Below the pieces are notes generated by a model. It saw nothing but the letters and a program-made list of their open reading frames with translations. It had not been told where the DNA came from and ran no database searches. The translations under genes and the position numbers were made by a program. From a virus: 50,434 nt of DNA. How positions within the stretch are numbered: position 1 is the first letter of the stretch; the number at the start of each line of letters is the position of its first letter. The stretch is taken from the IMG/VR virus record IMGVR_UViG_3300021961_006271, positions 1 to 50,434 of that record. The stretch is one strand, 5' to 3'. Shown here piece by piece: positions 2,551 to 42,070 of the stretch.

Positions 2551-2553
2551 CGA

Positions 2554-5603: not shown

Positions 5604-5785
5604 GAAAGAAAGATATAATAACATTAAATGATGACTGGTATGAAGTTCAGAGAGTACTTAGAGAGGATCGTCAATGGGATGTTGAAATTCTTAAACAGTA
5701 CTGGTCTTGTACACATACCTTCCGTAAAGACGGTCTACTCTATTTTTGTAGAGAGATCCCAAAAATTGAATATCAACAAATATGA
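5600..5785 (+). CDS. Hypothetical protein (61 aa)
   Basis: The start at ATG 5600 (MRKKDIITLND) overlaps the stop of the membrane protein gene (ATGA). The product is a small basic/aromatic beta-rich protein with two Cys. No family is recognised. Its stop overlaps the thyX start. Confidence 0.55.
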   Translation: MRKKDIITLNDDWYEVQRVLREDRQWDVEILKQYWSCTHTFRKDGLLYFCREIPKIEYQQI

Positions 5786-6429
5786 AAGTAACCCTAAATC
5801 ATGTAACTCCGGACGCGGAGAATGCAATTGTAAAAATTGCTAGAGTATCCTCTAAACGTACCGACAAGGTAGAGAAGCCTGAAGGGCTACTAAACTACCT
5901 TATCAAGCATAAGCATTGGTCTCCATTCGAGCACGGATATATGTCTGTAGAGATTGAGACTTCTAAAGCTATTGGTATTCAGTTAATTCGTCACCGCTCT
6001 TTTACCTACCAAGAGTTCTCACAACGTTACCAGGATGTAAGCTTAATTGACGGTATGTTTGAGAGTGTAGAGCTAAGAAAGCAAGCTGAAGATAATAGAC
6101 AAAGCTCCACTGAAGTATTTAACCCAGACGTATTCTATGCTGGATACAGTACTGCAGCTTCAGCTCAGATCGGTAAACACTTCAGAGCTTCTGAAGACCT
6201 TTATAAAAAACTCCTTGAAGAAGGAGTAGCAAGAGAAGTAGCACGTATGGTACTTCCTCTAGCAACTAAGACAAAAATTCACATGACCGGTTCTATCCGT
6301 TCGTGGATTCACTTCCTTGATCTCCGTGATGATGCTCATGCTCAAAAAGAGATTCAAGACGTAGCAAAAGAGATCAAAAAGATCTTTATCGAACAATTCC
6401 CAGTAATTTCAAAAGCACTAAATTATTAA
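5782..6429 (+). CDS. thyX: FAD-dependent thymidylate synthase ThyX
   Basis: ThyX makes dTMP from dUMP using methylenetetrahydrofolate and FAD/NADPH. The signature RHRX7S is complete (R70, H71, R72, S80), followed by QRY, and the length of 215 residues is normal for the family. Conserved KHWSPFEH and the region near residue 170 (MTGSIRSWIHFLDLR) with the flavin and nucleotide contact residues are also present. It overlaps the preceding gene by 4 nt. It supplies thymidine nucleotides for phage replication. Confidence is high. Confidence 0.96.
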   Translation: MKVTLNHVTPDAENAIVKIARVSSKRTDKVEKPEGLLNYLIKHKHWSPFEHGYMSVEIETSKAIGIQLIRHRSFTYQEFSQRYQDVSLIDGMFESVELRKQAEDNRQSSTEVFNPDVFYAGYSTAASAQIGKHFRASEDLYKKLLEEGVAREVARMVLPLATKTKIHMTGSIRSWIHFLDLRDDAHAQKEIQDVAKEIKKIFIEQFPVISKALNY

Positions 6430-6431
6430 TC

Positions 6432-7055
6432 ATGAAAAAATGGCAGCACTTTACTTTCTTGTTATGGGTGGCGCTCTTGGCTTCCTCATTCACAGCCTCT
6501 GGACAGAAATCTTTAAGAGACAGCGTTGAATGGAACACCCCTTACTTTAGAATCTGGTATTCAGAACCTCTAGAGAATCCTTTGTCAGTACGTTACGGTG
6601 TAGCTTGTCCTACAGGTACTGCTTCTAGATCAGGAATGGATTTCTATAAAGAAAAAGGAATTCATACTTCTGATAACAACGACTACGTAGGTAACGAATG
6701 GGACAAAGGTCATATGGCTCCTGCCGCAGACTTTAACTGTACCCGTGAAATGCTATTGGAGACATTTACATACGTCAACTCTTCCTTGCAGCACCAGTCT
6801 CTCAATAGAGGTGTATGGAAGAAGCTGGAGACTCGAGAAAGAGAGTTAGCACTAGCAGGCGATGTTCAAGTCTTCATCCGAGTAGAATTCTCTGCTAATC
6901 CTTCTAGAGTACCTGGTGGCGCTGCTATACCAAAAGGATATTATAAGGAACTAAAAGTTGGAAATCGCCGGGAATGTTACTATTTTAAGAATGAGAAACC
7001 ACTGACATCAGAACTCTCAGACTTTAAATGTCCATGTAGAAACGCAATCCGATGA
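6432..7055 (+). CDS. Secreted DNA/RNA non-specific endonuclease (NUC family)
   Basis: The N terminus (MKKWQHFTFLLWVALLASSFTASG) is a signal peptide, so the enzyme should be exported to the periplasm or beyond. The mature part belongs to the Serratia-nuclease family: DKGHMAPAAD (D91-H94, catalytic His 94) followed by a Tyr-Val-Asn-Ser segment and SLNRGVWKKLE, which holds the metal-binding Asn. These enzymes cut single- and double-stranded DNA and RNA with Mg2+. It is 207 residues, close to the catalytic core. A phage nuclease outside the cytoplasm could destroy incoming DNA of competitors or DNA released by lysis; which one is inference. Confidence 0.88.
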   Translation: MKKWQHFTFLLWVALLASSFTASGQKSLRDSVEWNTPYFRIWYSEPLENPLSVRYGVACPTGTASRSGMDFYKEKGIHTSDNNDYVGNEWDKGHMAPAADFNCTREMLLETFTYVNSSLQHQSLNRGVWKKLETRERELALAGDVQVFIRVEFSANPSRVPGGAAIPKGYYKELKVGNRRECYYFKNEKPLTSELSDFKCPCRNAIR

Positions 7056-8244: not shown

Positions 8245-8251
8245 TATCATG

Positions 8252-8277: not shown

Positions 8278-8285
8278 TTTATTAT

Positions 8286-9499: not shown

Positions 9500-9693
9500 A
9501 CGCAAAAGAACTTATAGAGAAGCATAAGATCTATCTAGAAGATCTAGAGCGCTGGGTAGTACCCTTAGAGGTAGTAGACGAAGCTCTTCAGATGAAAACT
9601 GCTAAAGAGTTAGAAGAAAACTTAGGTAAGTTAGAAACTAATATGGCAGAGCTAAATAAATTATTTAACGACTTAGGAAATAATAATGGTTAA
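9496..9693 (+). CDS. Small helical protein (65 aa)
   Basis: The product is almost all helix, charged, with heptad-like Leu spacing in residues 35-60, so a coiled coil is likely. It overlaps the MazG-like gene (ATGA) and the dpdA start (8 nt). No function is assigned; it may be an accessory of either neighbour. Confidence 0.6.
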   Translation: MNAKELIEKHKIYLEDLERWVVPLEVVDEALQMKTAKELEENLGKLETNMAELNKLFNDLGNNNG

Positions 9694-10513: not shown

Positions 10514-11039
10514 TCAGACTGGATCTGAGATTGTTCAGGTTAGTAAGATATTAGGTCGCTGGCCTGACCTTATTATTACTAATACCAGGCCTTCTCATTT
10601 ACGTACTATACATCCTGAGATTCCTACAGACCTATTAAAGTATACTCAGAATAGACCTGAGGAGCATGAGCTTGTGTGGCTAATGAGCGCAATAAGCGGA
10701 GACCCTGTTGTAACTCTACACGGATGGTTGAGAGTAATGCCTGCTTCTATCTGTAATCGTTATGAGATCTATAACGGACATCCGGGATTGATTACTAAAT
10801 ATCCAGACCTAAAAGGAAAAGATCCTCAGTTTAGAGCCTGGGAAGGTAATTATCGAACTGCTGGCTGTGTTATTCACAAAGTAACTGCCGGAGTAGATGA
10901 AGGAGAAGTTCTTATGGAGCGAGAAAGTATACATCAGATGTTGCCTAAGAATGATATTTTTCGTATCTTACATGACACATCAGTAGAGATGTGGGTAGAA
11001 TTTTTACACGATAAACTATGGTTAGACGAATTGCATTAG
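10479..11039 (+). CDS. Formyltransferase-like protein, possible dPreQ1 formyltransferase (DpdN)
   Basis: The C-terminal half has the catalytic triad region of 10-formyl-tetrahydrofolate-dependent formyltransferases such as PurN: LHGWLRVMP, then YNGHPGLITKYPDLKG (Asn and His), and KVTAGVDEGEVL with the catalytic Asp. The N terminus lacks the usual full Rossmann start of PurN. The gene overlaps dpdA by 35 nt in another frame, which points to a linked role. In other 7-deazaguanine phages a formyltransferase (DpdN) was proposed to make 7-(formylamino)methyl-7-deazaguanine from preQ1 in DNA. I infer the same here. ATG 10452 is an alternative start. Confidence 0.75.
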   Translation: MVPTRPWVAFFSQTGSEIVQVSKILGRWPDLIITNTRPSHLRTIHPEIPTDLLKYTQNRPEEHELVWLMSAISGDPVVTLHGWLRVMPASICNRYEIYNGHPGLITKYPDLKGKDPQFRAWEGNYRTAGCVIHKVTAGVDEGEVLMERESIHQMLPKNDIFRILHDTSVEMWVEFLHDKLWLDELH

Positions 11040-11536
11040 TAGGAGCTAGTAGTACTGGTAAGACTACTGTGTATGAGTTATTGAAAGCTAAACTACCTAA
11101 GTACGAATTTATTAACGAAAGTACTCGTACGGTAGCTAAGTTTGGCTTTCCTATTAACGAAGCAGGTACTACTGAGACTCAGTTAGCTATCTCTTCATTC
11201 CACTTAGAGGCTTTGCTTAAGCCTCATAGTTTAATTCTAGATCGTTGTTATCTAGATCTAATTGTATACTCTAAGCATATGCCTGCTTTATCTCAACAAG
11301 GTCTAGACTTTATTGAAGATACTTGGACTAGAGTACAGGATGAGTATACGCACTATATTTATTTCCCTATTGAATTCGATGCTGTGGATGATGGTCAGCG
11401 TAGTGTCGATGAAGCTTGGAGAAAGATTATTGATGAAGAGTTTAAGTATCAACTCGATTTAACTGACCGTCATTATTTAACTGTTACTGGCTCACCATTG
11501 CAGCGAGTAGATCAAATTTTAAAATACATAAAGTAA
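11018..11536 (+). CDS. P-loop nucleoside/nucleotide kinase-like ATPase
   Basis: The Walker A motif GASSTGKTT is at residues 9-17, and LILDRCYLDL (about residues 75-85) matches the DR-x-D region of small AAA_28/NadR-type kinases. The length is 172 residues. Such phage proteins phosphorylate nucleosides, nucleotides or related small molecules. It overlaps the formyltransferase by 22 nt and ends just before queF, so it belongs to the same transcription unit. A role in handling modified nucleotides is possible but not shown. Confidence 0.75.
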   Translation: MVRRIALVGASSTGKTTVYELLKAKLPKYEFINESTRTVAKFGFPINEAGTTETQLAISSFHLEALLKPHSLILDRCYLDLIVYSKHMPALSQQGLDFIEDTWTRVQDEYTHYIYFPIEFDAVDDGQRSVDEAWRKIIDEEFKYQLDLTDRHYLTVTGSPLQRVDQILKYIK

Positions 11537-16191: not shown

Positions 16192-16514
16192 AAAGATTAG
16201 TACCTATGAATGACCGCTTGGTCGTCAAACCTATGGAAGAGACTGAGCAGATGTACGGTAACATCATCATCGCTGATATGGGTAAAGAACGTCCTGAGAT
16301 GGGCGAAGTTATTGCTGTAGGACCTGGACGTATGTCCGAATACGGTAAATTTATCCCAGTTAACTTTAATGTAGGTGATATTGTATTGCTACCTAAGATT
16401 GGAACCCTCCGAGTAGAGTTTGAAGGCGAAGAGTTCTACATTGCTCAATCTCGAGAAGTTCTCTGTAAAGTACAAGAAACATATAATCCAGAATCAGATC
16501 ACGAATTACTATGA
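16188..16514 (+). CDS. groES: GroES co-chaperonin
   Basis: This 108-residue protein has the GroES opening (LVPMNDRLVVKPMEE), a mobile loop in shortened, divergent form (EQMYGNIIIADMG) and the GEVIAVGPG and VGDIVLLPK beta segments that form the dome. GroES heptamers cap the GroEL ring. The C-terminal 15 residues are extra. It overlaps groEL by 4 nt. The changed mobile loop may be matched to the phage GroEL rather than the host one; this is inference. Confidence 0.92.
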   Translation: MKRLVPMNDRLVVKPMEETEQMYGNIIIADMGKERPEMGEVIAVGPGRMSEYGKFIPVNFNVGDIVLLPKIGTLRVEFEGEEFYIAQSREVLCKVQETYNPESDHELL

Positions 16515-18133
16515 GTAAACGTATAGAATTTTCAGCCGAAGCACGAAGAGGTTTACGCGCTGGTGTAGAAAAACTTTCAAACGCAGTAACAGCTACATTA
16601 GGTCCTAACGGACGTAACGTTATTATCGAACAGCAGCAAGGTAACCCTATCTCTACTAAAGACGGTGTGACAGTAGCTAAGGCTGTTGAATTAGAAGATA
16701 CAGTTGAGAATATGGGTGCACAGCTTGTTAAGCAGGCATCTATTAAAACAGCAGACGGTGCCGGTGACGGTACTACTACATCAACTCTGCTAGCAGCTGA
16801 GATTTACAAACACGGTTTAGGTTCTTTAGACTTCCATAATGCTACTGATGTCAGTCGCGGTATTGCTAAAGCTACTACAGCCGTTGTAGATTACTTAGAG
16901 AAGAATGCTAGAGAGATTACAGATGAGAATCAGTTGCGTCAAGTAGCAACTATCTCAGCTAACAACGACCCAGAAGTGGGAGAGCTTATCGCTTCATCGA
17001 TGGACAAGGTGGGACGTGAAGGCGTAGTGACGATTGAGGAGTCTCGCACAGGAGAGACTTACCTCGAGGTTGTTGAGGGTATGCAATTTAATCGAGGATA
17101 TAAGTCTATATACTTTGTCACGGATAACAATTCCATGACTGCCGTTTTGAGCAACCCTCTCGTTTTGATTACAGATAAGAAAGTCACTGCCGCAAAAGAG
17201 CTACTGCCAATCCTTGAGGCTTGCTCTTCACAGAACAAACCATTGCTCATCATCGCTGATGACATTGATGGCGAGGCTCTCTCCACTTTGGTCGTTAATA
17301 AGATGCGAGGCATCCTTCAAGTAGTAGCAGTTAAAGCTCCAGACTTTGGAGATCGTAAGAAAGCTATGCTAGAAGACATTGCTGTGTTAACAGGAGGTCA
17401 AGTAGTAAGTACTGAGAAAGGTATGCGACTTGATAAATTCAACCCAGACTGGTTAGGTTCTTCTCGTAAGATCACTATCGGTAAAGACGATACTACGATT
17501 GTAGACGGTAAAGGAGACACGGAAGCTATCAGTGCTCGCATTGAGGAGATTAAAGCTCTTATCGATAATAGTAAATCACCTTTTGAAAAGGAGACCCTAC
17601 AGGACCGCTTAGGACGATTGATCGGAGGCGTGGCTATCGTACACGTAGGAGGTCAATCTGAACTTGAGATGAAAGAGAAGAAAGACCGAGTAGAGGATGC
17701 CCTTCACGCTACTAAAGCAGCTCTAGAAGAAGGTATTCTACCCGGAGGAGGTATTGCACTCCTTAATGCAGCACAGGTACTAACGATACCAGAAGGCTTA
17801 AACTCCTCAGAAGTAGAAGGTTATAGAATTCTAATGAGCGCTATTGGAATGCCTTTTGATACTATTTTAAGCAATGCAGGCTTTACAAAAGATAGAATCG
17901 AGAGTATTCTAGAAAAGATTGTTGAATCGGATAACTTCTGGCAAGGATTTAATCTCCGTACTGAAGACTATGTAAATATGTTCGACGAAGGGATTATCGA
18001 TCCTGCTAAGGTAACACGCCTAGCATTAGAGAATGCTTCTTCTATCGCACGTACTATGTTGACTACCGAATGTATTATCAGCAACGTTAAAGAAGAGAAC
18101 AAACAAGAGATGGACTTTAATCAATTTATGTAA
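16511..18133 (+). CDS. groEL: GroEL chaperonin
   Basis: The protein (540 aa) has near normal length. ATP-binding motifs are present: LGPNGRNVII, KDGVTVAK, GDGTTTSTLLA (about residues 83-93, with the catalytic Asp) and the C-terminal VEDALHATKAALEEG and LPGGGIALL. The apical domain (about 190-375) keeps KAPDFGDRKKAML. The C-terminal GGM-repeat tail of host GroEL is missing; it ends EMDFNQFM. GroEL forms double rings and refolds proteins in the cytoplasm with GroES. A phage-borne pair probably serves folding of capsid or other phage proteins. Base usage in 16978-17320 differs from the rest (see findings). Confidence 0.95.
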   Translation: MSKRIEFSAEARRGLRAGVEKLSNAVTATLGPNGRNVIIEQQQGNPISTKDGVTVAKAVELEDTVENMGAQLVKQASIKTADGAGDGTTTSTLLAAEIYKHGLGSLDFHNATDVSRGIAKATTAVVDYLEKNAREITDENQLRQVATISANNDPEVGELIASSMDKVGREGVVTIEESRTGETYLEVVEGMQFNRGYKSIYFVTDNNSMTAVLSNPLVLITDKKVTAAKELLPILEACSSQNKPLLIIADDIDGEALSTLVVNKMRGILQVVAVKAPDFGDRKKAMLEDIAVLTGGQVVSTEKGMRLDKFNPDWLGSSRKITIGKDDTTIVDGKGDTEAISARIEEIKALIDNSKSPFEKETLQDRLGRLIGGVAIVHVGGQSELEMKEKKDRVEDALHATKAALEEGILPGGGIALLNAAQVLTIPEGLNSSEVEGYRILMSAIGMPFDTILSNAGFTKDRIESILEKIVESDNFWQGFNLRTEDYVNMFDEGIIDPAKVTRLALENASSIARTMLTTECIISNVKEENKQEMDFNQFM

Positions 18134-19159: not shown

Positions 19160-19245
19160 GCTACTGTGGTGAAATTGGTAGACACGAGGGACTTAAAATC
19201 CCTTGGCCAGTGATGGCCGTGCCGGTTCGATTCCGGCCAGTAGTA
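19160..19245 (+). tRNA. tRNA-Leu (anticodon TAA)
   Basis: The acceptor stem GCTACTG/CAGTAGT includes one G-T pair at the first position, with discriminator A at 19245. The anticodon TAA is at 19194-19196 in the loop CTTAAAA. A variable arm of class II type (GGCCAGTGATGGCC) and a T-arm with TTCGATT are present. No CCA is encoded. It reads UUA/UUG codons. Confidence 0.93.
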
Positions 19246-19263
19246 CACGGAAACCCATATACG

Positions 19264-19275
19264 GTTCTTTGACAT
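19264..19275 (+). promoter_or_regulatory. boxA-like antitermination motif
   Basis: GTTCTTTGACAT lies in the gap between tRNA-Leu and the HNH gene. It resembles the boxA sequence that precedes or lies between rRNA genes in many bacteria (TGTTCTTTGA type). It may keep transcription through the structured tRNA region, or be a chance match in 97 nt of non-coding DNA. Confidence 0.35.
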
Positions 19276-19342
19276 GTTGGATAGTAAAACATTAGACACG
19301 TTCTCGTGGTTTACACATCTCTACCTATTTATATAAAAAGGT

Positions 19343-19771
19343 ATGAGACAAGAAACACGAGAAGACTTTCAAAAAGCTATAGAAGCTACAGAATCTATGC
19401 AAGCTGCTGCTAAGTTGTTAGGAATGAGTTACGATACTTTTAGGAGTTATGCTCTGAGGTACGGAGTTTTCAATCCTAATCAAGCAGGTAAAGGACGTAT
19501 GAAAGCTAAAATTTATAAGGAAGCTGACGACGTATTACAGAAGACTGATAAGCAGATTGGTAGAGCTATTGTGAAAAAATGGCTTTTGCAAGAACGAAAG
19601 TATGAGTGTCAAAAATGCGGAAATAAAGGAGAGTGGCAAGGAGAGCCTCTAGCTCTAGAGTTAGAACATGTGAACGGAGATTCTTTTGATAATACAAGAG
19701 AAAACCTGCTTATACTATGTCCTAATTGCCACTCTCAGACTTCTACCTTTAGAGGTAGAAAAATTAGGTAA
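19343..19771 (+). CDS. HNH homing endonuclease
   Basis: The N terminus (residues 8-40) is a helix-turn-helix-like region ending in NPNQAGKG. Residues 90-136 hold a zinc ribbon (CQKCG and CPNC) around the HNH core: LELEHVNGD (catalytic His), DNTRENL (Asn) and LCPNCHS (metal His). The length of 142 residues is usual for phage homing nucleases. It sits inside the tRNA cluster, with tRNA-Leu(TAG) starting one base after its stop, and looks like an insertion between tRNAs. A degenerate relative is at 47322-47975. Confidence 0.88.
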   Translation: MRQETREDFQKAIEATESMQAAAKLLGMSYDTFRSYALRYGVFNPNQAGKGRMKAKIYKEADDVLQKTDKQIGRAIVKKWLLQERKYECQKCGNKGEWQGEPLALELEHVNGDSFDNTRENLLILCPNCHSQTSTFRGRKIR

Positions 19772-19845
19772 GCCCTCGTGACGGAACTGGCATACGTACT
19801 AGACTTAGGATCTAGGTTTTGGGAGTTCGACTCTCCCCGAGGGCA
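19772..19845 (+). tRNA. tRNA-Leu (anticodon TAG), short variable arm
   Basis: The acceptor stem GCCCTCG/CGAGGGC is perfect, with discriminator A at 19845. The anticodon TAG (19806-19808) is in loop CTTAGGA between CTAGA and TCTAG. The T-arm is GGGAG-TTCGACT-CTCCC. Unlike a normal bacterial Leu tRNA, the variable region is only about five bases (GTTTT), so the molecule is class I in form. No CCA is encoded. It starts directly after the HNH stop. Confidence 0.85.
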
Positions 19846-19962
19846 CATAATGAGAGGAGGAAAAGGTAAACTCCAAAGGTACGATCGACGGATCGTTTAA
19901 AACCTGCGGTTCGGACTCTGATGCTGTAAGCGCGCTAAAGGAGTGAAGCCTCTCTATAATAT
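19846..19962 (+). other. tRNA spacer with hairpin
   Basis: Between two tRNAs, a perfect hairpin ACGATC-GACG-GATCGT is present in the middle. GAGAGG (19852-19857) could pair with CCTCTC (19949-19954) to close the whole spacer. It has no T-loop and no convincing cloverleaf, so I do not call a tRNA. It may be a processing spacer or a small RNA. Confidence 0.35.
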
Positions 19963-20036
19963 GGACCAGTAGCTCAGCTGGATAGAGCATCAGCCTTCTA
20001 AGCTGACGGCCGAAGGTTCGAATCCTTCCTGGTTCA
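19963..20036 (+). tRNA. tRNA-Arg (anticodon TCT)
   Basis: The acceptor stem GGACCAG/CTGGTTC has one G-T pair. D-arm AGCTCAGCTGGATAGAGC, anticodon TCT at 19997-19999 in loop CTTCTAA, and T-arm GAAGG-TTCGAAT-CCTTC. The discriminator is A at 20036 and no CCA is encoded. It reads AGA/AGG, the Arg codons often used in AT-rich phage genes. Confidence 0.94.
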
Positions 20037-20128
20037 CTACGCAGTCAGATGCATCTGGTTTCTCTATTCCATTTAAAAATAGAGTGGAGCTACAGTGGCA
20101 GGTTATGGTTGTCCTCTAACAACCAGCT
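20037..20128 (+). other. tRNA spacer with hairpins
   Basis: CAGATGCATCTG is a palindrome, CTCTATT...AATAGAG gives a stem, and GGTTGT...ACAACC another, all between tRNA-Arg and tRNA-Pro. There is no cloverleaf. It has no ORF of note. Confidence 0.35.
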
Positions 20129-20201
20129 CGGGATGTGGCGCAAGTGGTAGCGCACCTGGTTTGGGACCAGGGGGTTGGAGGTTCGAGTCCTGTCATCCCG
20201 A
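20129..20201 (+). tRNA. tRNA-Pro (anticodon TGG)
   Basis: The acceptor stem CGGGATG/CATCCCG is perfect. The anticodon TGG (20162-20164) is in loop TTTGGGA closed by CCTGG/CCAGG. The T-arm contains GGTTCGAGTCC. The discriminator is A at 20201, with no encoded CCA. Confidence 0.94.
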
Positions 20202-20223
20202 CTAATTATTAAATGTTATAAAA

Positions 20224-20388
20224 ATGAAGACAATCATTAAGTATTTCTTTCCGGTAATGTACGTGCTTTACATTGTAGGAGTTGGGCTAAACGTGAGTAC
20301 AGGCAACTACTCAGATGCGGCATGGGTGTTAAGCGCACTGCTCTGGATGTTTAACTACCATATGCTATACCTAAAGATTACCAAATAA
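20224..20388 (+). CDS. Small two-span membrane protein (54 aa)
   Basis: A frame starts at ATG 20224, directly after tRNA-Pro, and stops at 20388. Two hydrophobic segments, about residues 8-23 and 33-49, are joined by a short loop (VSTGNYSDA). A gene inside the tRNA cluster with membrane segments might be a toxin or a small accessory protein; nothing else supports either. Confidence 0.45.
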   Translation: MKTIIKYFFPVMYVLYIVGVGLNVSTGNYSDAAWVLSALLWMFNYHMLYLKITK

Positions 20389-20391
20389 AGA

Positions 20392-20478
20392 TCCCAGACG
20401 TGTACAAAGAGACTGAGTCTAGCCTCTAAATCCTAGCAACCGGTACTGATCCCGGTGATGGTCTAGGTTGACTTGGGA
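20392..20478 (+). ncRNA. Candidate structured RNA in the tRNA cluster (not a tRNA)
   Basis: An outer stem TCCCAG (20392-20397) / TTGGGA (20473-20478) encloses a stem AGAC-TGA-GTCT (20410-20420) and a nested stem CCTAG (20432-20436) / CTAGG (20463-20467) with inner ACCGG (20439-20443) / CCGGT (20452-20456) and loop TACTGATC. At 87 nt it is tRNA-sized, but it has no T-loop TTCGA and no standard anticodon arm. Phage T4 carries stable non-tRNA RNAs within its tRNA cluster, so a similar case is possible. Confidence 0.45.
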
Positions 20479-20608
20479 AAAGATATAGAGGGGGATACGT
20501 GAACCAATAAGCGTCCTACAAGCAACTCCCCATGACTCAATTAGGTTGTTATGCAATTAGCTCTGCAACCTCATGCACCTGTAGACAGTGAGGTGATTGG
20601 GTCTAAAA
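20479..20608 (+). other. tRNA spacer with stem AGGTTG/CAACCT
   Basis: AGGTTG (20543-20548) and CAACCT (20566-20571) form a six-pair stem with inner GCA/TGC pairing. A second stem CCTCA/TGAGG could compete with it. A GGGG (20491-20495) and CCCC pair flanks an upstream part. No ORF or tRNA is seen. Confidence 0.3.
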
Positions 20609-20681
20609 GCCTCCTTAGCTCAGTTGGTAGAGCCACTGATTTGTAATCAGTAGGTCGTTGGTTCGAGTCCGACAGGAGGCT
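20609..20681 (+). tRNA. tRNA-Thr (anticodon TGT)
   Basis: The acceptor stem GCCTCCT/AGGAGGC is perfect with discriminator T. The anticodon TGT (20642-20644) is in loop TTTGTAA closed by ACTGA/TCAGT. The T-arm contains GGTTCGAGTCC. No CCA is encoded. Confidence 0.95.
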
Positions 20682-20689
20682 CTTTTTAC

Positions 20690-20775
20690 TGGAAGGTGGG
20701 TGAGTGGTTAAAACCGGCAGACTGTAAATCTGCTCCCTTACGGGTACGGCAGTTCGAATCTGTCCCTTCCAACCA
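20690..20775 (+). tRNA. tRNA-Tyr (anticodon GTA), CCA encoded
   Basis: With the acceptor stem taken as TGGAAGG/CCTTCCA the discriminator is A at 20772 and CCA follows at 20773-20775, the only encoded CCA in the cluster. The anticodon GTA (20724-20726) sits in loop CTGTAAA. A long class II variable arm (CTCCCTTACGGGTACG) and a T-arm GGCAG-TTCGAAT-CTGTC fit tRNA-Tyr. Confidence 0.93.
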
Positions 20776-20787
20776 CCGAACGTAGGA

Positions 20788-20823
20788 TGCTGAGGAGCTT
20801 TAACCAGCGACCCCACCTCAGCA
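20788..20823 (+). other. 8-bp hairpin between tRNA-Tyr and tRNA-Met
   Basis: TGCTGAGG (20788-20795) pairs with CCTCAGCA (20816-20823) around a 20-nt loop. It lies between two tRNAs and could be a processing signal. Confidence 0.5.
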
Positions 20824-20826
20824 CAT

Positions 20827-20900
20827 GGGCCTGTAGCTCAGCCGGTTAGAGCGAGGGACTCATAATCCCCAGGTCCCAGGTTCGAACCCTGGCAGGCCCA
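20827..20900 (+). tRNA. tRNA-Met or tRNA-Ile2 (anticodon CAT)
   Basis: The acceptor stem GGGCCTG/CAGGCCC is perfect with discriminator A. The anticodon CAT is at 20861-20863 in loop CTCATAA. The D-arm AGCTCAGCCGGTTAGAGC and T-arm CCAGG-TTCGAAC-CCTGG are standard. It is not an initiator type by its acceptor end. Elongator Met and Ile2 (lysidine-modified CAT) cannot be told apart by anticodon alone. Confidence 0.93.
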
Positions 20901-20913
20901 CTAATTATTATAA

Positions 20914-22271: not shown

Positions 22272-22292
22272 TATTAAATTTGTATTAAGAGC

Positions 22293-22321
22293 TTGTATGT
22301 TTGAATTAATTTCGTATCTTT
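22293..22321 (+). promoter_or_regulatory. Bacteroidota-type promoter before the TonB-dependent receptor
   Basis: TTG at 22293-22295, a 19-base spacer ending TTTCG, and TATCTTT at 22315-22321. The gene starts at 22368, leaving a leader of about 40 nt that is AT-rich. Confidence 0.65.
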
Positions 22322-22367
22322 ATTACCAACGGTTGTATTGTAATTTTGTTTAATTAAATTTTATCTT

Positions 22368-24905
22368 ATGAAAAAAGGTAAGTTTTGGATGTTACTCGGA
22401 GCAATTGTGTTGTCTTCCGGCGTAGCGTTCGCACAAGCAACCCCTGACTACACAGCTCTCGACTCGCTCTATCAGCTAGACGAAGTGACTGTTACCTCAG
22501 GGGTTATTGATATCGCTAAGGTTCGAGAGACACCTGTAGCAGTATCGACTCTGTCTTTAGCAGAGATTCAACTAAAGGTGGGTAACTTAGAGTTCCCAGA
22601 AGTAATGAACCGCACTCCAGGTGTATACGCTACCAAGCAAGGTGGTGGTTACGGCGACTCACGAATCAACCTTCGTGGCTTTGACCAGCGTAATACATCT
22701 ATTCTTATCAACGGCCAGCCGGTCAACGATATGGAGAGTGGATGGGTTTATTGGTCCAACTGGCAAGGCCTTACTGATGTTGCATCTGGTATTCAGATCC
22801 AACGCGGCTTAGGTGCTTCCCGCTTAGCTGTTCCTTCTGTAGGTGGTACTATCTCCATCTTCACTAAGGCTGCAGAGAAGCAAGAAGGTGGATCTATCTC
22901 CCAGACTTCTGGTAACAATGGTTACTCAAAGACATCTGTTGTCTATAACACAGGTAAGGATGCTAACGGATGGGCTACATCTGTACTTCTTTCCAAGTGG
23001 TCGGGCGATGGATATGCTTACGGTACAGCCGGTGAAGGTTGGACCTACTTCACAGCATTAGGTTATGCTCCTGAAGGTTCCGATCACGCCCTTAACTTCT
23101 CCTTCTTAGGAGCTGGTCAATGGCACCACCAAAGAAGTGCATGGGTATCTATCCGTGACTATCAGAACTTTGGTGAAGAGGGGATTGACCGTCGTTGGAA
23201 TACCGATGCTGGTTTCTTGAATGGTGAAGAGTATAACATGCGTAGAAACTTCTACAATAAGCCTCTTGCTACTATTAACTGGGACTGGAATATTAACTCC
23301 AACTGGAAACTAAACACTTCATTGTACGGTTCAGCCGGCCGTGGTGGTGGTACAGGACCACGCGGCGGTAACTTCCGTAATGGAGATATCGACTTCTATC
23401 CTTACAACAAGGACCTTACTGAGCATTACTTAGATAATGGTAGAGGTACTCGTGACTCAAATGGCTTTATTGATTTCAATGCTGCTATTGCTGTTAACCA
23501 AGGTACTACTAATGGTTACGGTACAACTGACTCACTTACTTCATCTCCGTTCTACGGCTTGTTAGTTGGTTCTAACGGCTACAGAAGCGATGATGTTAAC
23601 AGAGCTGTATTGGTGCGTCGTGCTTCTATGAACTCTCACGACTGGTATGGAGCCATCTCTAACTTAGAAGGCCAGTTCGGTAAGTTAAGAACTTCTATCG
23701 GTGTTGACCTTCGTACATACAAGGGTTACCACTACCGTGTTATGAATGACTTGATGGGTCTTGATGCTTACTACTCAACTGGTAACAAGAACTCAGAAGG
23801 CCAGTTCATCACTACAACTGTTGCTGCTACTCCGTTCACTGGTACTGGCTTGAACGGTCCTAAGATTGACTACTATAACAATGGTATCGTAGGATGGCAA
23901 GGCGTTAATGGTTTACTGGAGTGGGCTGATACTAAGCTTACTGCTGTGGTACAGGGCGGACTGTCTAATCAATCTTTCCAGAGAGAAGACTTCTTCGACC
24001 AACCAACACTTCCTATCTCAGAAGTTGCTAACTTAGGAGGCGGATACTTAAAGGGCGGTGCTAACTATAACATTAACGAGTACTCTAACGTATTCTTTAA
24101 CACTGGTTACATCTCTCGTCAGCCTCAGTTTGATGCTGTATTCCCTAACTATGCTAACCTTATTAACGAAGACCTACAGAACGAAGAAATTAAATCTGTA
24201 GAGTTAGGGTACGGTTATAATAGCAGCAAACTTACCTTGAATGTAAATGCTTACTCTACAACTTGGGGTAATCGTTTTATCACTCGTGCATTGTTTAATG
24301 CTCAAGGTGATCAGGGTTACGGTCAGTTCCGTAATATCGACGTACGTCACAACGGTATTGAAGTTGAAGGTGTATACAACGCAACTCCTAAGTTGAAGTT
24401 GACTGCTATGACTTCTATCGGTGATTGGAGATACACTAAAGACTTTGATGCAGAGTTGTTTGACGATCAACAGCAATCAATCGGTACAGGTACTCTTTAC
24501 TTGAAGGGTGCTAAGGTTGGTGACGCTGCTCAGTTCACTACTTACTTAGCTGCTGACTACCGCGCTAATAAGTGGGTTGCTTTTGATCTAGGTTACCGCT
24601 TTGTAGATGGTCTTTACGCTGACTACTCTATTGTAGATGCTGTCTTCACTCAACCAGACAATGCTGGAGCTCTTAAGCTTCCTTCATACGGTTTAGTAGA
24701 TGCCGGTCTTACTACTCGCTTAGGTGAGAAGTGGTCTTTGAGAGTAAACATCAACAACTTGCTTGATGCTACTTACATCTCTGAGTCTGAGACAAACATC
24801 CACGCTGATGAGAACTCTGTTACCTGGAACGGTATCGACGTTCGTAACTCAGTATGGTTTGGCTTTGGCCGTACTTGGAACGCTAGCTTGAAGTATAACT
24901 TCTAA
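22368..24905 (+). CDS. TonB-dependent outer-membrane receptor
   Basis: TonB-dependent receptors import bulky nutrients through the outer membrane. The 845-residue product starts with a clear signal peptide (to about residue 23, GVAFAQ), then a TonB-box-like LDEVTVTS (37-44), a plug domain of about 130 residues (VMNRTPGVYATKQG, INLRGFDQRN, VGGTISIFTK) and a long barrel rich in Tyr/Asn/Gly strands ending SLKYNF, with the C-terminal Phe required for barrel assembly. The SusC-type N-terminal extension is absent. A phage copy is rare; it could remodel host uptake, or block the receptor used by rival phages. It is followed by a strong terminator. Confidence 0.95.
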   Translation: MKKGKFWMLLGAIVLSSGVAFAQATPDYTALDSLYQLDEVTVTSGVIDIAKVRETPVAVSTLSLAEIQLKVGNLEFPEVMNRTPGVYATKQGGGYGDSRINLRGFDQRNTSILINGQPVNDMESGWVYWSNWQGLTDVASGIQIQRGLGASRLAVPSVGGTISIFTKAAEKQEGGSISQTSGNNGYSKTSVVYNTGKDANGWATSVLLSKWSGDGYAYGTAGEGWTYFTALGYAPEGSDHALNFSFLGAGQWHHQRSAWVSIRDYQNFGEEGIDRRWNTDAGFLNGEEYNMRRNFYNKPLATINWDWNINSNWKLNTSLYGSAGRGGGTGPRGGNFRNGDIDFYPYNKDLTEHYLDNGRGTRDSNGFIDFNAAIAVNQGTTNGYGTTDSLTSSPFYGLLVGSNGYRSDDVNRAVLVRRASMNSHDWYGAISNLEGQFGKLRTSIGVDLRTYKGYHYRVMNDLMGLDAYYSTGNKNSEGQFITTTVAATPFTGTGLNGPKIDYYNNGIVGWQGVNGLLEWADTKLTAVVQGGLSNQSFQREDFFDQPTLPISEVANLGGGYLKGGANYNINEYSNVFFNTGYISRQPQFDAVFPNYANLINEDLQNEEIKSVELGYGYNSSKLTLNVNAYSTTWGNRFITRALFNAQGDQGYGQFRNIDVRHNGIEVEGVYNATPKLKLTAMTSIGDWRYTKDFDAELFDDQQQSIGTGTLYLKGAKVGDAAQFTTYLAADYRANKWVAFDLGYRFVDGLYADYSIVDAVFTQPDNAGALKLPSYGLVDAGLTTRLGEKWSLRVNINNLLDATYISESETNIHADENSVTWNGIDVRNSVWFGFGRTWNASLKYNF

Positions 24906-24931
24906 GTTACGTAAAAGTTTATTTAAAGAGA

Positions 24932-24958
24932 GGGTGGCTTTTTAGTCACCCTTTTTTT
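24932..24958 (+). terminator. Rho-independent terminator after the TonB-dependent receptor
   Basis: GGGTGGCT (24932-24939) pairs with AGTCACCC (24944-24951), one G-U pair, around loop TTTT, followed by T7 (24952-24958). It is 26 nt after the stop and the best terminator in the window. Confidence 0.9.
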
Positions 24959-24970
24959 ATATTTATATCT

Positions 24971-26536
24971 ATGAAGAAGTTATTTACCCTACTAGCATTT
25001 ATTGCATCGACAATCTTATACGGGTCACACCTTTCCGGAGGTGATATTCAATATCGTTATATTGGCGACTCGACAGGTACAGCAAGACACTACAAAGTGA
25101 TCTTGCGTATCTATAGAGACGTTACCGGTATTGGAATGCCAACCACTGAAAACGTAACAGTAAGCTCAGGCTGTTACTCAAACATCAACGTACCGGTTAC
25201 GCTAGTGCCTGGATCAGGAATAGTATCTCCTACGTTATTTGATTGTGTAACTCCTAGCTCTGCAACTAAGACTCTAGAAGTTTATATGTACGTAGGGTAT
25301 GTTATACTGCCCGGTAACTGTAACTCATTTAGATTCTGGTATCAGAACTGCTGCAGACCTGGAGGTATTACAAACATAGCAGGATCATCTGGAGCAGGAT
25401 TTTATTTTGATGCTGAGTTAGATAATGCTTCTCAAGGTCAAAACTCCTCACCGGTCTTTGTTAGTGAGCCTGTAAGAGCTTTCTGTGTTGGTAATTCTTT
25501 TAACTGGAAACAAACAGCCATCGAAGAGGATGGAGACTCAGTAGTTTATTCTCTTATCAACTGCAGACAGAATGCCTACCCTAACCAGACTGACATTCCT
25601 TTTCTAGCAGGCTGGACTTCACAACAGCCAGTTACTTCTACGTATTTTAATATCGACCCTGTTAGTGGTCTGATTTCTTTTCTACCCACCGCTACTGAGA
25701 TTGATATACTATCAGTGCTAGTAGAAGAATATAGATTTGATACGTTATGGGGATACTGGTATAAGGTAGGAACAGCTTCTAGAGATATGATGATTAGTAT
25801 CTCTCCTAACTGTAATACTATTGCCATGCAGGGTGTACAATATGATGATACAACCTACCCTCTTGATACTCTAACAGGTCTACCTTTCCTTAAAGCTAGC
25901 TGCTCTGATACAGTCATAACTCTAAAGTTCCATATCGCTTTAGACTGCTACTCAGTCAATGAACAAGACTTTAGAATGACCGGACCTGATGGACAGCCTA
26001 GAGCTATTACAGCTATCGAAGCCAATTGCGATGTCAATGCTGAGACAGATTCACTAACACTACACGTACCTTTTAGTTTTGGTATGGACGGCAGATACTA
26101 CCTCTATTCTAAGAAAGGTAACGATGGTAATACATTAATCAATAAGTGCGGTCTGCCTATGGCTGAATTTGATACGATAGTTCTTATTGTAGATGATTGC
26201 CCGCCACCTCCACCTCCCGACCCTATTGGTCCGATTGATCAAGAATTAGAACCAGACCCTGTAAGTCCTGATCCTAAGCCTGTAGTTATTCCGAATGTGA
26301 TGACTCCAAATGGTGATAATAAAAACGATTTGTTTATTATTGAAAACTTAATGGATTGGCAGTATAGAGAGCTAGTTGTTATGAATAGATGGGGTACTGT
26401 CGTATATGAGAACGGAGACTACAAGAACGATTGGAATGGAGGAGATCTTTCAGACGGAGTATACTTTGGAGTGCTTTTTATCTCATACAAAGACATTATA
26501 GAACAGTATAGTTTTAACGTAACTCTCCTAAGATAA
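24971..26536 (+). CDS. Secreted protein with T9SS type B sorting domain
   Basis: An N-terminal signal peptide (MKKLFTLLAFIASTILYG, cut near residue 18) leads into the SHLSGGDIQYRYIG domain, which is common in Bacteroidota cell-surface proteins (residues about 20-280, Cys-rich). A Pro-rich linker (about 410-438) precedes a C-terminal domain of about 80 residues with PNVMTPNGDNKND, VVMNRWGTVVYE and LSDGVYFG, the gliding-motility-associated (type B) sorting domain recognised by the type 9 secretion system. The product should be exported across both membranes and attached to the surface or released. No other T9SS component is in the window, so it must use the host machinery. Confidence 0.9.
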   Translation: MKKLFTLLAFIASTILYGSHLSGGDIQYRYIGDSTGTARHYKVILRIYRDVTGIGMPTTENVTVSSGCYSNINVPVTLVPGSGIVSPTLFDCVTPSSATKTLEVYMYVGYVILPGNCNSFRFWYQNCCRPGGITNIAGSSGAGFYFDAELDNASQGQNSSPVFVSEPVRAFCVGNSFNWKQTAIEEDGDSVVYSLINCRQNAYPNQTDIPFLAGWTSQQPVTSTYFNIDPVSGLISFLPTATEIDILSVLVEEYRFDTLWGYWYKVGTASRDMMISISPNCNTIAMQGVQYDDTTYPLDTLTGLPFLKASCSDTVITLKFHIALDCYSVNEQDFRMTGPDGQPRAITAIEANCDVNAETDSLTLHVPFSFGMDGRYYLYSKKGNDGNTLINKCGLPMAEFDTIVLIVDDCPPPPPPDPIGPIDQELEPDPVSPDPKPVVIPNVMTPNGDNKNDLFIIENLMDWQYRELVVMNRWGTVVYENGDYKNDWNGGDLSDGVYFGVLFISYKDIIEQYSFNVTLLR

Positions 26537-29952: not shown

Positions 29953-30873
29953 ATGGTACTAAAGGTTGGTTCAAAAGGTGAGCTTGTAAAAGACGTACAA
30001 GAAGTTATTGGCGTCCCCGCAGATGGTATCTTCGGCCCTGCTACAGCTGAGGCTGTTAAGAAGTGGCAAGCAGCCAACGGACTAACTGCCGACGGTATAG
30101 TTGGCAACGGAACACTAGGTAAGATGGGACTACTAGATACTGATAACAGCACCTCCTCTGCCATCCCAGAAAACGCTTCAGGTCTATATACAAAAAAACC
30201 TTACAAGGTAGATGATCTACAGATAGTAGAATATTTTATGCCTGCTGACGAATATAAGAAAGGTCCTATCAAAGCTGAATGGTTATTCCTACACCACACA
30301 GCAGGCTGGCACAACCCTTACAACACTATTAAAGCTTGGGATGCTGATAAGAACGGTCCAATCTCTACAGAATTTGTACTAGGAGGACCTTCTTGTAAAG
30401 GAAATGATGATCAATATGATGGTGAACTAGTACAAGCCTTCCCGGCAGGTAACTGGGGATATCATTTAGGTAAGAACGGTTCTCAAAAAATGCATATCAA
30501 CTCTGTTGGTATCGAGGTATGTAACTTTGGGTACGTTAAAGACGGAAAAACATACGCAGGAGCGACTGTAGACCCGTCACAAATTGTAACCCTGCCACAA
30601 GCATTTAAAGGCCATAAAACTTGGCACCGCTACTCTGATAAGCAAATTGAAGTTCTTAAAAAATGGATTCTTTTTATAGCTAAAAGAGACGGTATCGATG
30701 TTAGAGCCGGCTTACCTGCACTTATTAAACAGAAAGGTGCCGCAGCATTTGAGTTTAACGAAGATGCTTATTACGGTAAAGTAAAAGGCTTATGGACACA
30801 TACCAATACCAGAACAGATAAGTTTGATATGTTCCCTCAACCAGAACTATTAGACATGTTAATAAGCCTTTAA
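29953..30873 (+). CDS. Endolysin: N-acetylmuramoyl-L-alanine amidase with peptidoglycan-binding domain
   Basis: An N-terminal peptidoglycan-binding domain (residues 1-60; VGSKGELVKDVQEV...DGIFGPATAEAV...TADGIVGNGTLG) precedes an Amidase_2 catalytic domain from about 85. FLHHTAG (H113-114) contains the first zinc His, and GLWTHTNTRTDKFD has the second His with the C-terminal Asp-Lys catalytic region. The enzyme cuts between MurNAc and L-Ala of the host wall. There is no signal peptide, so it depends on a holin. The lysis genes surround it. Confidence 0.93.
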   Translation: MVLKVGSKGELVKDVQEVIGVPADGIFGPATAEAVKKWQAANGLTADGIVGNGTLGKMGLLDTDNSTSSAIPENASGLYTKKPYKVDDLQIVEYFMPADEYKKGPIKAEWLFLHHTAGWHNPYNTIKAWDADKNGPISTEFVLGGPSCKGNDDQYDGELVQAFPAGNWGYHLGKNGSQKMHINSVGIEVCNFGYVKDGKTYAGATVDPSQIVTLPQAFKGHKTWHRYSDKQIEVLKKWILFIAKRDGIDVRAGLPALIKQKGAAAFEFNEDAYYGKVKGLWTHTNTRTDKFDMFPQPELLDMLISL

Positions 30874-33162: not shown

Positions 33163-34608
33163 ATGAACAGCAAATTAAGTTACGTTAAAAAAGAAGATCG
33201 AAAGAAGATCCTTCTGTTATCAGATGATATGAGACTACACTCCGGCATCGCTACGATGTCCAGAGAGATAGTAATACAAACCTCACATCACTTCAACTGG
33301 GTTAACCTAGGAGGAGCAATGAACCACCCAGATGATAAGAAAGCATTCGACCTATCGGCAGATGTTAACAAGCAAGTAGGTATCGAAGACTCGTACGTTA
33401 AGCTATATGCTACGTCAGGTTACGGTACTGCTGATATTGTTAGGGAACTTATTAGAGTAGAGAAACCAGATGCTATTCTACACTTTACTGATCCTAGATA
33501 CTGGACTTGGTTGTATGATATTGAAAGAGAGATTAGACAGACTATTCCTCTTCTATATCTAAACATTTGGGATGATTACCCTACTCCTCTTTACAATAAG
33601 AGCTTCTACGAGTGTTGTGATCTATTGATGGGTATCTCTAAACAGACTGTTAACATTAATAGAATGGTATTAGATGAAAAAGCTAAAGGTAAACTTATTA
33701 AGTATGTACCTCACGGCATCAATACAGACTTCTTCTCACCAGTCACAAAAGACTCTGACCAGTATGCTAAGTACTTAGAGTTTAGAAATAGTATCTTTGA
33801 AGGAAGAGATATTGAATTCGTTGTCTTCTGGAACTCTAGAAACATCCGTCGTAAGTCCCCGGGGGATGTTATTCTTTCTTACAGACAGTTCTGTGATCAG
33901 ATCGGACCAGAGAAGGCTAAGAAGTGTGCACTAGTAATGCATACACAAGCAGTAGATCAGAATGGTACAGACCTATATGCTGTTAGGGAAGCTATCTGCG
34001 ACCCAAGCTACGTAAATGTATTCTTCTCTCAGAACAAACTAGGAGCAGAGCAGATGAACTGGCTCTACAATATGGCTGATGTTACGATGTTGATCTCTTC
34101 TAATGAAGGATGGGGCCTATCTCTAACTGAGTCAATGACTGCTGGTACTATGATCATCGGTAACGTTACCGGAGGTATGCAAGACCAGATGAGGTTTATA
34201 GACGATGATGGAGAGTGGTATACACCTAATCCAGAGGTACCTTCTAATCATATGGCTACTTACTTAGAGCATGGTGAGTGGGCAGTACCTGTCTTCCCTT
34301 CTAATATCTCGCTAGTAGGTTCAGTACCTACTCCATACATCCACGATGACAGATGTGACTTTAGAGATGTAGCTCAAGCTATTCAAGAAATATATGAGCT
34401 ACCTAAAGAAGAAAGAGATCGTAGAGGTATGCTAGGTCATGACTGGGTACGTTCAGATGAAGCTAAGATGACAGCTGATGCAATGGGAGCAAATATCGCT
34501 CAATGTATCGAAGAGACGTTTGAAAGCTTTGTGCCACGTTCTAAGTACGACCTTATCAAGGTAGAAACTCTACCAGCAAGATATGTTAAACACGCAATGG
34601 TATACTAA
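33163..34608 (+). CDS. GT4-type glycosyltransferase (481 aa)
   Basis: GT-B fold glycosyltransferase: N-terminal KKILLLSDDMRLHSGIA and a C-terminal half with VPHGINTDFFSP and SSNEGWGLSLTESMTAGTM (family 4 EX7E-like motif, nucleotide-sugar contacts) and a GGMQDQ segment. The length is usual for the family. The acceptor is unknown. It begins a run of about twelve glycan-related genes on one strand with 1-4 nt overlaps, so a single operon is likely. Confidence 0.88.
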   Translation: MNSKLSYVKKEDRKKILLLSDDMRLHSGIATMSREIVIQTSHHFNWVNLGGAMNHPDDKKAFDLSADVNKQVGIEDSYVKLYATSGYGTADIVRELIRVEKPDAILHFTDPRYWTWLYDIEREIRQTIPLLYLNIWDDYPTPLYNKSFYECCDLLMGISKQTVNINRMVLDEKAKGKLIKYVPHGINTDFFSPVTKDSDQYAKYLEFRNSIFEGRDIEFVVFWNSRNIRRKSPGDVILSYRQFCDQIGPEKAKKCALVMHTQAVDQNGTDLYAVREAICDPSYVNVFFSQNKLGAEQMNWLYNMADVTMLISSNEGWGLSLTESMTAGTMIIGNVTGGMQDQMRFIDDDGEWYTPNPEVPSNHMATYLEHGEWAVPVFPSNISLVGSVPTPYIHDDRCDFRDVAQAIQEIYELPKEERDRRGMLGHDWVRSDEAKMTADAMGANIAQCIEETFESFVPRSKYDLIKVETLPARYVKHAMVY

Positions 34609-35870
34609 TGAGTAAGATAAATGTTACAATAAGCTGTCCGGTTGATACGTACAGCGGTTATGGAGCAAGAAGCAGAGACTTGGTTAAAGCTCTTTTAAAG
34701 ACAGGTAAGTACGATGTAAAGATTCTAAGCCAGCGCTGGGGTAATACTCGCTTTGGTTACTTAAAGGACCATAACGAAGTAGAGTTACTGTCACTTGTTA
34801 TACCTAACCTTACATCAAAGCCTCAAGTATGGATACAGGTAACTGTACCTAATGAATTCCAGCCTGTAGGTGAATATAACATCGGAGTTACTGCTGGTAT
34901 TGAGACTACGATCTGTGACCCTAGTTGGATTGAAGGACTGAATAGAATGAATCTTAATCTAGTCTCTTCTAATCATGCTAAGGAGACCTTTCAGCGCTCT
35001 AAGTTTAATGTCGAAGAAGGTGGACAGGTAAAAGGTACAGTAGAATTACAGAAGCCTATCGAGGTACTGCTTGAAGGAGCAGACTTAGAAAAGTACTTTA
35101 TCACTCCTTCTAACTTTAACCTATCTGGTGTTGAAGAAGACTTTGCTTTCTTATTTGTAGGACATTGGTTGCAAGGAGACTTTGCACAAGACAGAAAGAA
35201 TGTTGGCTATATGATCAAAGCCTTCTTAGAAGTATTTAAAAATAAAAAGAAACAACCAGCTCTTATTGTAAAGACTCAATCAGCTAACGCTTCCATCTTA
35301 GACAGAGATCAGATCTTAAAAAAGATAGATGAGATTAGAAGTACTGTTAGCGGCACTCTACCAAACATCTACGTACTTCACGGAGAGATGTCTGATCAAG
35401 AAGTTAACGAACTATACAACCACAAGAAGGTAAAAGCTATGGTTAGCTTTACTAAGGGTGAAGGCTTTGGACGTCCTCTATTAGAGTTCAGTCTGGTTAA
35501 CAAACCTATCATAGCCACAGGATGGTCAGGACATATTGACTTCTTAGATAGAGAATTTACTACTCTAGTAGGAGGTTCATTAACGAATGTACACCCAAGT
35601 GCAGTAGTTAAGAATATGATCTTGGCAGAGGCACAATGGTTTACTCCTGCAGATAGTGAAGCAGGATTAGCTCTACGTAACGTATTCGAAGACTATAAGA
35701 AGTACTCAGAGCTAGCTAAACGTCAAGGATATAAGTCACGTAATAACTTTAGCTTTGATAATATGGTAGAGCAATTAGATTCAATTCTATCAAAGAGTCT
35801 CCCGGCATTTGCTCAACAGGTAGAGTTAAAACTACCAACACTTTCACTTCCTAAACTACAAAAGATTTAA
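34608..35870 (+). CDS. GT4-type glycosyltransferase (420 aa)
   Basis: The product has an N-terminal SCPVDTYSGYGARSRDLVK donor-binding start and a C-terminal half with VLLEGADLEKYF, FLFVGHWLQGD and TKGEGFGRPLLEFSLVNKP, the GT4 acid/base and UDP/GDP-sugar binding region, then IATGWSGHIDFL. The start codon overlaps the stop of the previous gene by one base. It probably extends the same glycan as its neighbour. Confidence 0.88.
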   Translation: MSKINVTISCPVDTYSGYGARSRDLVKALLKTGKYDVKILSQRWGNTRFGYLKDHNEVELLSLVIPNLTSKPQVWIQVTVPNEFQPVGEYNIGVTAGIETTICDPSWIEGLNRMNLNLVSSNHAKETFQRSKFNVEEGGQVKGTVELQKPIEVLLEGADLEKYFITPSNFNLSGVEEDFAFLFVGHWLQGDFAQDRKNVGYMIKAFLEVFKNKKKQPALIVKTQSANASILDRDQILKKIDEIRSTVSGTLPNIYVLHGEMSDQEVNELYNHKKVKAMVSFTKGEGFGRPLLEFSLVNKPIIATGWSGHIDFLDREFTTLVGGSLTNVHPSAVVKNMILAEAQWFTPADSEAGLALRNVFEDYKKYSELAKRQGYKSRNNFSFDNMVEQLDSILSKSLPAFAQQVELKLPTLSLPKLQKI

Positions 35871-35871
35871 A

Positions 35872-42068: not shown

Positions 42069-42070
42069 TT

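Follow-up and report, generated by a model that had tools for sequence, protein, structure and literature searches.

The receptor gene

The DNA analysed here, called the window throughout, is a 50,434-nucleotide stretch of an IMG/VR virus contig (record IMGVR_UViG_3300021961_006271). It encodes a TonB-dependent receptor in an ORF of 845 open codons whose final residues before the stop are NASLKYNF (Table 1). The N-terminus reads as a signal peptide, MKKGKFWMLLGAIVLSSGVAFA, with cleavage predicted before QA; the signal peptide and the TonB box are present in all viral relatives checked. Pfam placed the Plug domain (PF07715, 9e-13) at residues 52-160 and the TonB barrel (PF00593, 1e-16) at residues 317-798, both over the curated cut-offs, and an AlphaFold2 model built from 60 relatives is a complete plug-plus-barrel (mean pLDDT 85, pTM 0.85). 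The protein thus combines the two Pfam domains with a signal peptide, a TonB box, a C-terminal aromatic residue and a plug-in-barrel fold, as TonB-dependent receptors do. The preliminary description of this DNA, which had recognised an intact, full 845-residue receptor with signal peptide, plug, barrel and C-terminal Phe, is borne out by ORF, Pfam and AlphaFold2 alike.

Table 1. Coordinates of the features of the window considered in the text
Feature	Position	Strand	Basis
Thymidylate synthase ThyX, directly upstream of the endonuclease	5782..6429	+	as given
Secreted DNA/RNA non-specific endonuclease (PF01223), signal peptide, DKGH intact	6432..7055	+	profile, motif check
P-loop kinase	11018..11536	+	position only; immuto gene at same place annotated thymidylate kinase
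GroEL, left border of insertion relative to immuto	16511..18133	+	profile, gene order
Three TAnnTTTG boxes (22275, 22296, 22341), Bacteroidota -7 promoter consensus	22275..22348	+	motif scan against shuffles
TonB-dependent receptor, 845 aa, short form without N-terminal CarboxypepD_reg domain	22368..24905	+	ORF, Pfam, AlphaFold2, fold matches
Signal peptide, residues 1-22, predicted cleavage between AFA and QA	22368..22433	+	read from sequence
TonB box LDEVTVTS, residues 37-44	22476..22499	+	read from sequence
Plug domain, residues 52-160, best-conserved part	22521..22847	+	Pfam, conservation
Beta-barrel, residues 174-845, C-terminal Phe	22887..24902	+	Pfam, AlphaFold2
Intrinsic terminator, stem-loop with T-run	24924..24959	+	folding energy against shuffles
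Secreted surface protein, type IX secretion tail (CHU_C), possible receptor partner	24971..26536	+	profile; SHLSGG start
Endolysin-like gene, right border of insertion relative to immuto	29953..30873	+	profile, gene order

In PHROGs the protein matches an unnamed family, phrog_5687. Membership of the SusC/RagA group was rejected, given the lack of a TIGR04056 match and of an N-terminal extension and the absence of SusD among the neighbours scanned. Such an extension does occur in some viral relatives, and the phage receptor comes in two forms, with an N-terminal CarboxypepD_reg-like domain (L005, L008, L011, L029) or without it (the window, L180-L183, L027), the TonB box being kept in both.

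The solved structures that best match the model are PqqU, FhuA and FecA, and FecA also gave the top matches in a PDB sequence-profile search; a direct sequence search of the PDB, with this protein as the only query, returned no match. The protein shares with receptors of this fold the signal peptide, TonB box, plug, barrel and C-terminal aromatic residue, but it is phage-borne and scores far under the cut-off of every curated subfamily tested (83 against 224 bits for the siderophore model). These folds would suit a receptor that imports a micronutrient (ferric siderophore, haem or cobalamin), in which case the linkage to nucleases described below would be a mere clustering of phage nucleotide genes; a second phage receptor class, also described below, scores with BtuB and haemin models. 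We consider this explanation unlikely, since the protein stayed under the curated NCBIfam cut-offs for the receptor subfamilies of siderophores, haem and B12, no gene for any of these three ligands was recognised next to it, and the viral linkage to S1/P1 nuclease is nearly absolute.

Conservation within the phage clade was 0.92 for the plug, 0.80 for the predicted extracellular loops, 0.79 for the strands and 0.59 for the periplasmic turns. Loops no less conserved than strands fit a fixed ligand and argue against a decoy or an arms-race surface. In another reading the receptor would change the cell surface, replacing, masking or acting as decoy for the receptor of competitor phages and so leading to superinfection exclusion. 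TonB receptors are indeed common phage receptors, crAss-like tail spikes have been docked to them (PMC10569736), and the phage genome has many glycosyltransferase genes. Nevertheless we find a surface role quite improbable, because a decoy would need neither the TonB box nor the plug, both of which are retained, and because the linkage to nucleases and a kinase would be left unexplained.

The 96-bp intergenic gap 5' of the receptor contains three TAnnTTTG boxes, against about 0.04 expected from window-wide shuffles. A promoter of its own is likely from these boxes, although no complete -33/-7 Bacteroidota promoter pair was found upstream of the receptor; a sigma-70 promoter was rejected, its signal being no better than chance against shuffles. 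The stem-loop that follows the gene has a folding energy of -21.7 kcal/mol (z -5.7), and none of 200 shuffles was equally stable. The gene had previously been credited with both a promoter and a terminator, and of these the terminator is strong, while the promoter has to be restated as likely.

The carrier phage

PolA of the window shares 73% identity, along the entire protein, with that of Flavobacterium phage vB_FspM_immuto (Immutovirus), and the two genomes share the gene order QueE, phosphoribosyltransferase, FolE, (DpdA), PurN, kinase, QueF, PolA, GroES, GroEL. After an insertion the shared order resumes with endolysin, a holin-like gene, PD-(D/E)XK and glycosyltransferases. Related PolA and common gene order place the window phage among the Immutovirus-like phages. 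In the interval between GroEL and endolysin the window holds tRNA genes, two glycosyltransferase-like genes, the receptor and a CHU_C gene, whereas immuto has small genes only, and a search of the GenBank phage collection gave no match to the receptor in immuto. Three further contigs (L002-L004; 92, 125 and 37 kb) carry a 99% identical receptor at the same place with the same upstream neighbours, and the 125-kb one of these (124.7 kb, syntenic with the window and from the same phage) encodes tail sheath, tail tube and baseplate hub. An assembly join is therefore very unlikely. We conclude that the contig is confirmed as that of a tailed phage related to immuto, with marine Flavobacterium-like bacteria as hosts. 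That the receptor is phage-encoded, as first proposed, is upheld by PolA, gene order and the tail genes of the syntenic contig; the two objections raised at the outset, a join at the gene borders or a host chromosome, are ruled out by L002-L004 and those tail genes.

Directly before the receptor-bearing insertion, at 19160-20901, seven tRNA genes stand around an HNH-like ORF (19343-19771); the cluster is a possible integration hot spot. The gene that follows the receptor encodes a CHU_C protein and is absent at the same place in the near-identical phages L002-L004, which excludes it as an obligate receptor partner. We keep it as a possible partner because shorter CHU_C relatives stand after Endonuclease_NS in L114 and L125-L127, and after the second phage receptor in L254. 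Relatives of the CHU_C protein were found by scan at five viral loci only, and none among GenBank phages.

Two other gene groups characterise this phage. QueC, QueE, FolE and QueF lie at 1634-12451 together with a DpdA-like gene (9686-10513, assigned by position relative to immuto), and from this set the phage probably replaces the guanine in its own DNA by a 7-deazaguanine. A run of about 15 genes at 33163-45682 includes glycosyltransferases, a sugar epimerase, methyltransferases and a fucosyltransferase-like protein, with a comparable block in immuto, and possibly serves glycan decoration of the virion or of the host surface.

Distribution, exchange and selection

A pattern scan with the receptor protein retrieved 35 viral loci, and a profile scan found relatives encoded in 154 viral stretches, the best 80 of which were fetched (69-99% identity). 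Long matches in two GenBank records labelled "phage" were left out as phage evidence, the records being unverified faecal scaffolds. Relatives with 57-73% identity also occur in bacterial MAGs; phage contigs were suspected here, but several of them (L038, L040, L068) are cellular, as their pgi neighbourhood shows. The homolog search in phage and host genomes suggested by the preliminary description thus found relatives in both. The carriers are of several kinds, among them immuto-like phages and T4-like phages with clamp and clamp-loader genes.

In a tree of 91 rows the viral copies formed one starred group that also takes in ten copies from cells, namely marine Flavobacteriaceae and relatives, and the supported branches force at least five exchanges between viral and cellular labels. 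This mixing, and the position of the receptor within an insertion relative to immuto, would be expected if it were passive cargo, a host gene in transit without function for the phage. That is the most improbable of the explanations we weighed: dN/dS was 0.05 for the closest viral pair and 0.05-0.24 over viral pairs, and the gene is spread over the 154 stretches with a linked cassette in several phage lineages. By these ratios the receptor gene is under purifying selection in phages. As a host-type gene, intact and selected within a phage genome, it is a candidate auxiliary metabolic gene, one that would alter host metabolism during infection.

Nucleases beside the receptor in phages

The window encodes a secreted Endonuclease_NS, 55% identical to that of immuto and about 15 kb from the receptor; in related phages a nuclease of this type is directly upstream of the receptor. 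A lipoprotein Endonuclease_NS (PF01223) lies 5' of the receptor in L016, L024 and L035, and Endonuclease_NS directly precedes it in L180-L182. No S1/P1 nuclease was found in the window, nor in the GenBank phage collection. S1/P1 nuclease (PF02265) lies 3' of the receptor in seven other loci (L011, L015, L017, L022, L027, L028, L031), and in L107 and L183 Endonuclease_NS, receptor and S1/P1 stand in one row. In the viral copies S1/P1 retains its zinc-ligand motifs and Endonuclease_NS its DKGH motif, apart from one S1/P1 motif that was not found in L109.

The linkage also held in a reverse test, in which the viral collection was scanned with S1/P1 nuclease alone. This gave 13 loci, one of them cut at a contig edge, and all 12 uncut loci follow a TonB receptor, ten of the family studied here and two of the second class (L101, L103). 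As a control we took 44 loci from phages with Endonuclease_NS and without a nearby receptor. S1/P1 was present in 13 of 57 dereplicated viral receptor loci and in none of these 44 (p=5e-4), although p values for linkage, here and below, are only indicative because the control loci share ancestry to differing degrees. Endonuclease_NS is common in phages that have no receptor close by, which counts against reading the cargo from this gene.

The second, unrelated class of phage TonB receptor was found on three contigs only, near S1/P1 in L101 and L103. On the 252-kb contig G006 it is encoded at L254 13073-15046 (658 aa, BtuB-like, phrog_5687), where it follows Endonuclease_NS; the same contig also encodes the receptor family studied here.

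Kinase and other nucleotide genes

A third entry point was an AAA_28 kinase that often follows the receptor; after dereplication it gave 34 loci with 4 kb or more of upstream sequence. A TonB receptor lies upstream in 29 of them, and 19 of these 29 also have S1/P1, against none of the five receptor-less loci (p=0.011). The kinase matches PF13521, and its fold matches NadR (top), with deoxyadenosine kinase and thymidylate kinase matching equally well; the sole NCBIfam match, a weak one, is the NadR model. Relatives are annotated as thymidylate kinase in several cultured phages.

If the kinase were a NadR-type ribosylnicotinamide kinase, as its top structural match and its NCBIfam and PF13521 matches would allow, the receptor could take part in salvage of an NAD precursor (nicotinamide riboside or nucleotide). 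This we judge very unlikely: deoxyadenosine and thymidylate kinases fit the fold just as well, the substrates of S1/P1 and Endonuclease_NS are nucleic acids, and neither NadV nor PnuC was recognised beside the receptor.

In 16 of 79 viral loci the gene immediately 5' of the receptor encodes IMPDH/GMP reductase. Linkage to NrdA was discarded as not specific (9 of 57 receptor loci, 9 of 44 controls); ribonucleotide reductase-like genes were read from ORF starts on a sister contig of the window phage. The clustering of IMPDH, kinase and NrdA may simply reflect the many nucleotide genes of these phages. A glutamine synthetase gene, another gene of nitrogen metabolism, was seen near the receptor in a few phages (L268 10216-11346).

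Cellular relatives and a sister locus

Nucleases also adjoin some cellular members of the family. On an Arcticimaribacter MAG contig (L039/L247) a receptor with 69% identity is accompanied by S1/P1, Endonuclease_NS and a NupC-type nucleoside transporter, the latter scoring 387 bits, under the 442-bit cut-off. Among Bacteroidales relatives the receptor adjoins S1/P1 in L079 and L081; in L089 and L096 its neighbour is a secreted endonuclease I that bears a type IX tail, and in L076 a lipoprotein that matches NF052645 and choice-of-anchor J. Most Flavobacteriaceae orthologs, on the other hand, adjoin pgi and no nuclease, at loci that are clearly chromosomal for several, and this counts against a nucleic-acid cargo. 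Other neighbours at host loci are GH16 laminarinase-like, asparaginase-type and tryptophan-dioxygenase-like genes, which together with pgi indicated no consistent substrate. Across genomes, S1/P1 was present in 17 of 21 with the receptor and in 75 of 128 without it, a difference that is only suggestive.

In nine cellular genomes the next-best full-length paralog is a receptor whose neighbouring DUF5689 lipoprotein shares its NCBIfam family with the L076 lipoprotein. This sister receptor is the nearest full-length paralog of the phage-type receptor, at 23-26% identity. Its locus comprises the DUF5689/choice-of-anchor-J lipoprotein and, beside the sister receptor in most genomes examined (L237, L238-L246), a divergently transcribed gene for a secreted endonuclease/exonuclease/phosphatase, ExeM/NucH-like where tested; this DNase could be part of DNA uptake.

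In Riemerella anatipestifer, RA0C_RS04915 and RA0C_RS04920 are both essential for natural transformation, and a proposal has been made that their products bind DNA and carry it across the outer membrane (PMC8459023). The Flavobacteriaceae sister locus has the architecture of this transformation locus and is its likely counterpart, the match being one of architecture and not to the Riemerella sequence. Bacteroidales orthologs of the phage gene resemble it in that their partner lipoprotein belongs to the same families (NF052645, choice_anch_J). The phage receptor differs in that it has no DUF5689 partner and is flanked by S1/P1, Endonuclease_NS and the kinase. Orthology of the phage receptor to the RS04915 type was ruled out, the two being separate paralogs, and we retain paralogy.

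Could the phage receptor, like its sister in the proposed Riemerella role, take up longer DNA for recombination or for a competence-like use? The DUF5689-linked receptor is its closest full-length paralog, and the distance between the two paralogs is 2.7 kb in one genome of the Flavobacteriaceae (L237) and about 12 kb in Ancylomarina. Yet the nucleases at viral loci would destroy long DNA, neither a DUF5689 partner nor ComEC was recognised at viral loci, and the orthologous groups are distinct, so that we hold uptake of longer DNA to be highly improbable.

A proposed role in nucleic-acid foraging

The linkage to S1/P1, Endonuclease_NS and kinase in the relatives, and the nucleases that neighbour cellular receptors and the sister receptor, point to a nucleic-acid cargo. 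We propose, at what we would call an even chance, that the receptor belongs to a phage module importing nucleic-acid breakdown products for viral DNA synthesis, the cargo being suggested by linkage. Expression of the receptor, its dependence on TonB, its cargo and its benefit to the phage are what we infer. Of the three options first offered for this gene, a route of nutrient uptake therefore fits best, with nucleic-acid products as candidate cargo, while masking and decoy are not supported, given the conserved loops.

Under this proposal, phages infecting Flavobacterium would have taken the importer gene from their hosts and would pass it among themselves. The infected host would make the receptor, export it and power it with the host TonB system, as is usual for the family. 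The secreted phage Endonuclease_NS would cut DNA or RNA outside the cell, and the TonB-powered receptor would bring the resulting oligonucleotides or nucleotides into the periplasm, where in many relatives a periplasmic S1/P1 nuclease would trim them to mononucleotides. Host nucleotidase and nucleoside transporters would then carry nucleosides inward, and the phage kinase and purine enzyme (IMPDH/GMP reductase) would return them to the dNTP pool for viral DNA. Several points speak against this cargo. In the window S1/P1 is absent and Endonuclease_NS lies 15 kb from the receptor; nucleosides may be small enough to do without a TonB receptor, and any gain from uptake would have to come within a single infection cycle.

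With more reserve, and at somewhat below an even chance, marine Flavobacteriia phages may possess a complete foraging route by which the infected cell consumes extracellular DNA, perhaps from lysed kin or rival phages, for viral DNA; this would define a TonB receptor family for nucleic-acid products. A cellular parallel is known from Vibrio cholerae, where extracellular nucleic acid is cut and the products are imported by means of Dns/Xds and NupC. The proposed module is alike in its working, but in V. cholerae porins provide the passage across the outer membrane and the genes belong to the bacterium, not to a virus.

Relation to known systems

Phages boost host metabolism and use TonB receptors as doors. 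If the proposal is true, it adds a new phage resource strategy in which virions are partly built from extracellular nucleic acid, and it gives phage infection a part in the marine cycling of dissolved DNA and phosphorus. It also supplies a ligand hypothesis for a TonB receptor family with cellular members across Bacteroidota, and through the sister-group link to the Riemerella-type locus the crossing of the outer membrane by DNA in pilus-less Bacteroidota becomes directly testable.

Among open-licence papers we found none that connects nucleases with a TonB receptor carried by a phage. Hundreds of viral bins from the gut, from phages of Bacteroides and Alistipes, were reported to contain TonB plug and receptor domains, which were read as entry receptors or immunogens (PMC8857322). 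Those proteins carry the same Pfam domains, also in Bacteroidota phages, but come from another habitat, and the accessible text of that report proposes neither a nuclease-kinase linkage nor a cargo. The suggestion that such a gene was previously undescribed holds only in part, since the gut bins already contain TonB domains and the window protein matches phrog_5687; the receptor-nuclease-kinase module does appear new, and the claim to novelty would possibly be stronger with its cargo shown. Another phage-borne part of the TonB system is ExbB, reported as an auxiliary metabolic gene (PMC11361711), which unlike the receptor is an inner-membrane energiser and was found in a polysaccharide context. 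Finally, a library of viral protein structures contained one entry similar to the receptor, a "SusC" from an uncultured marine phage.
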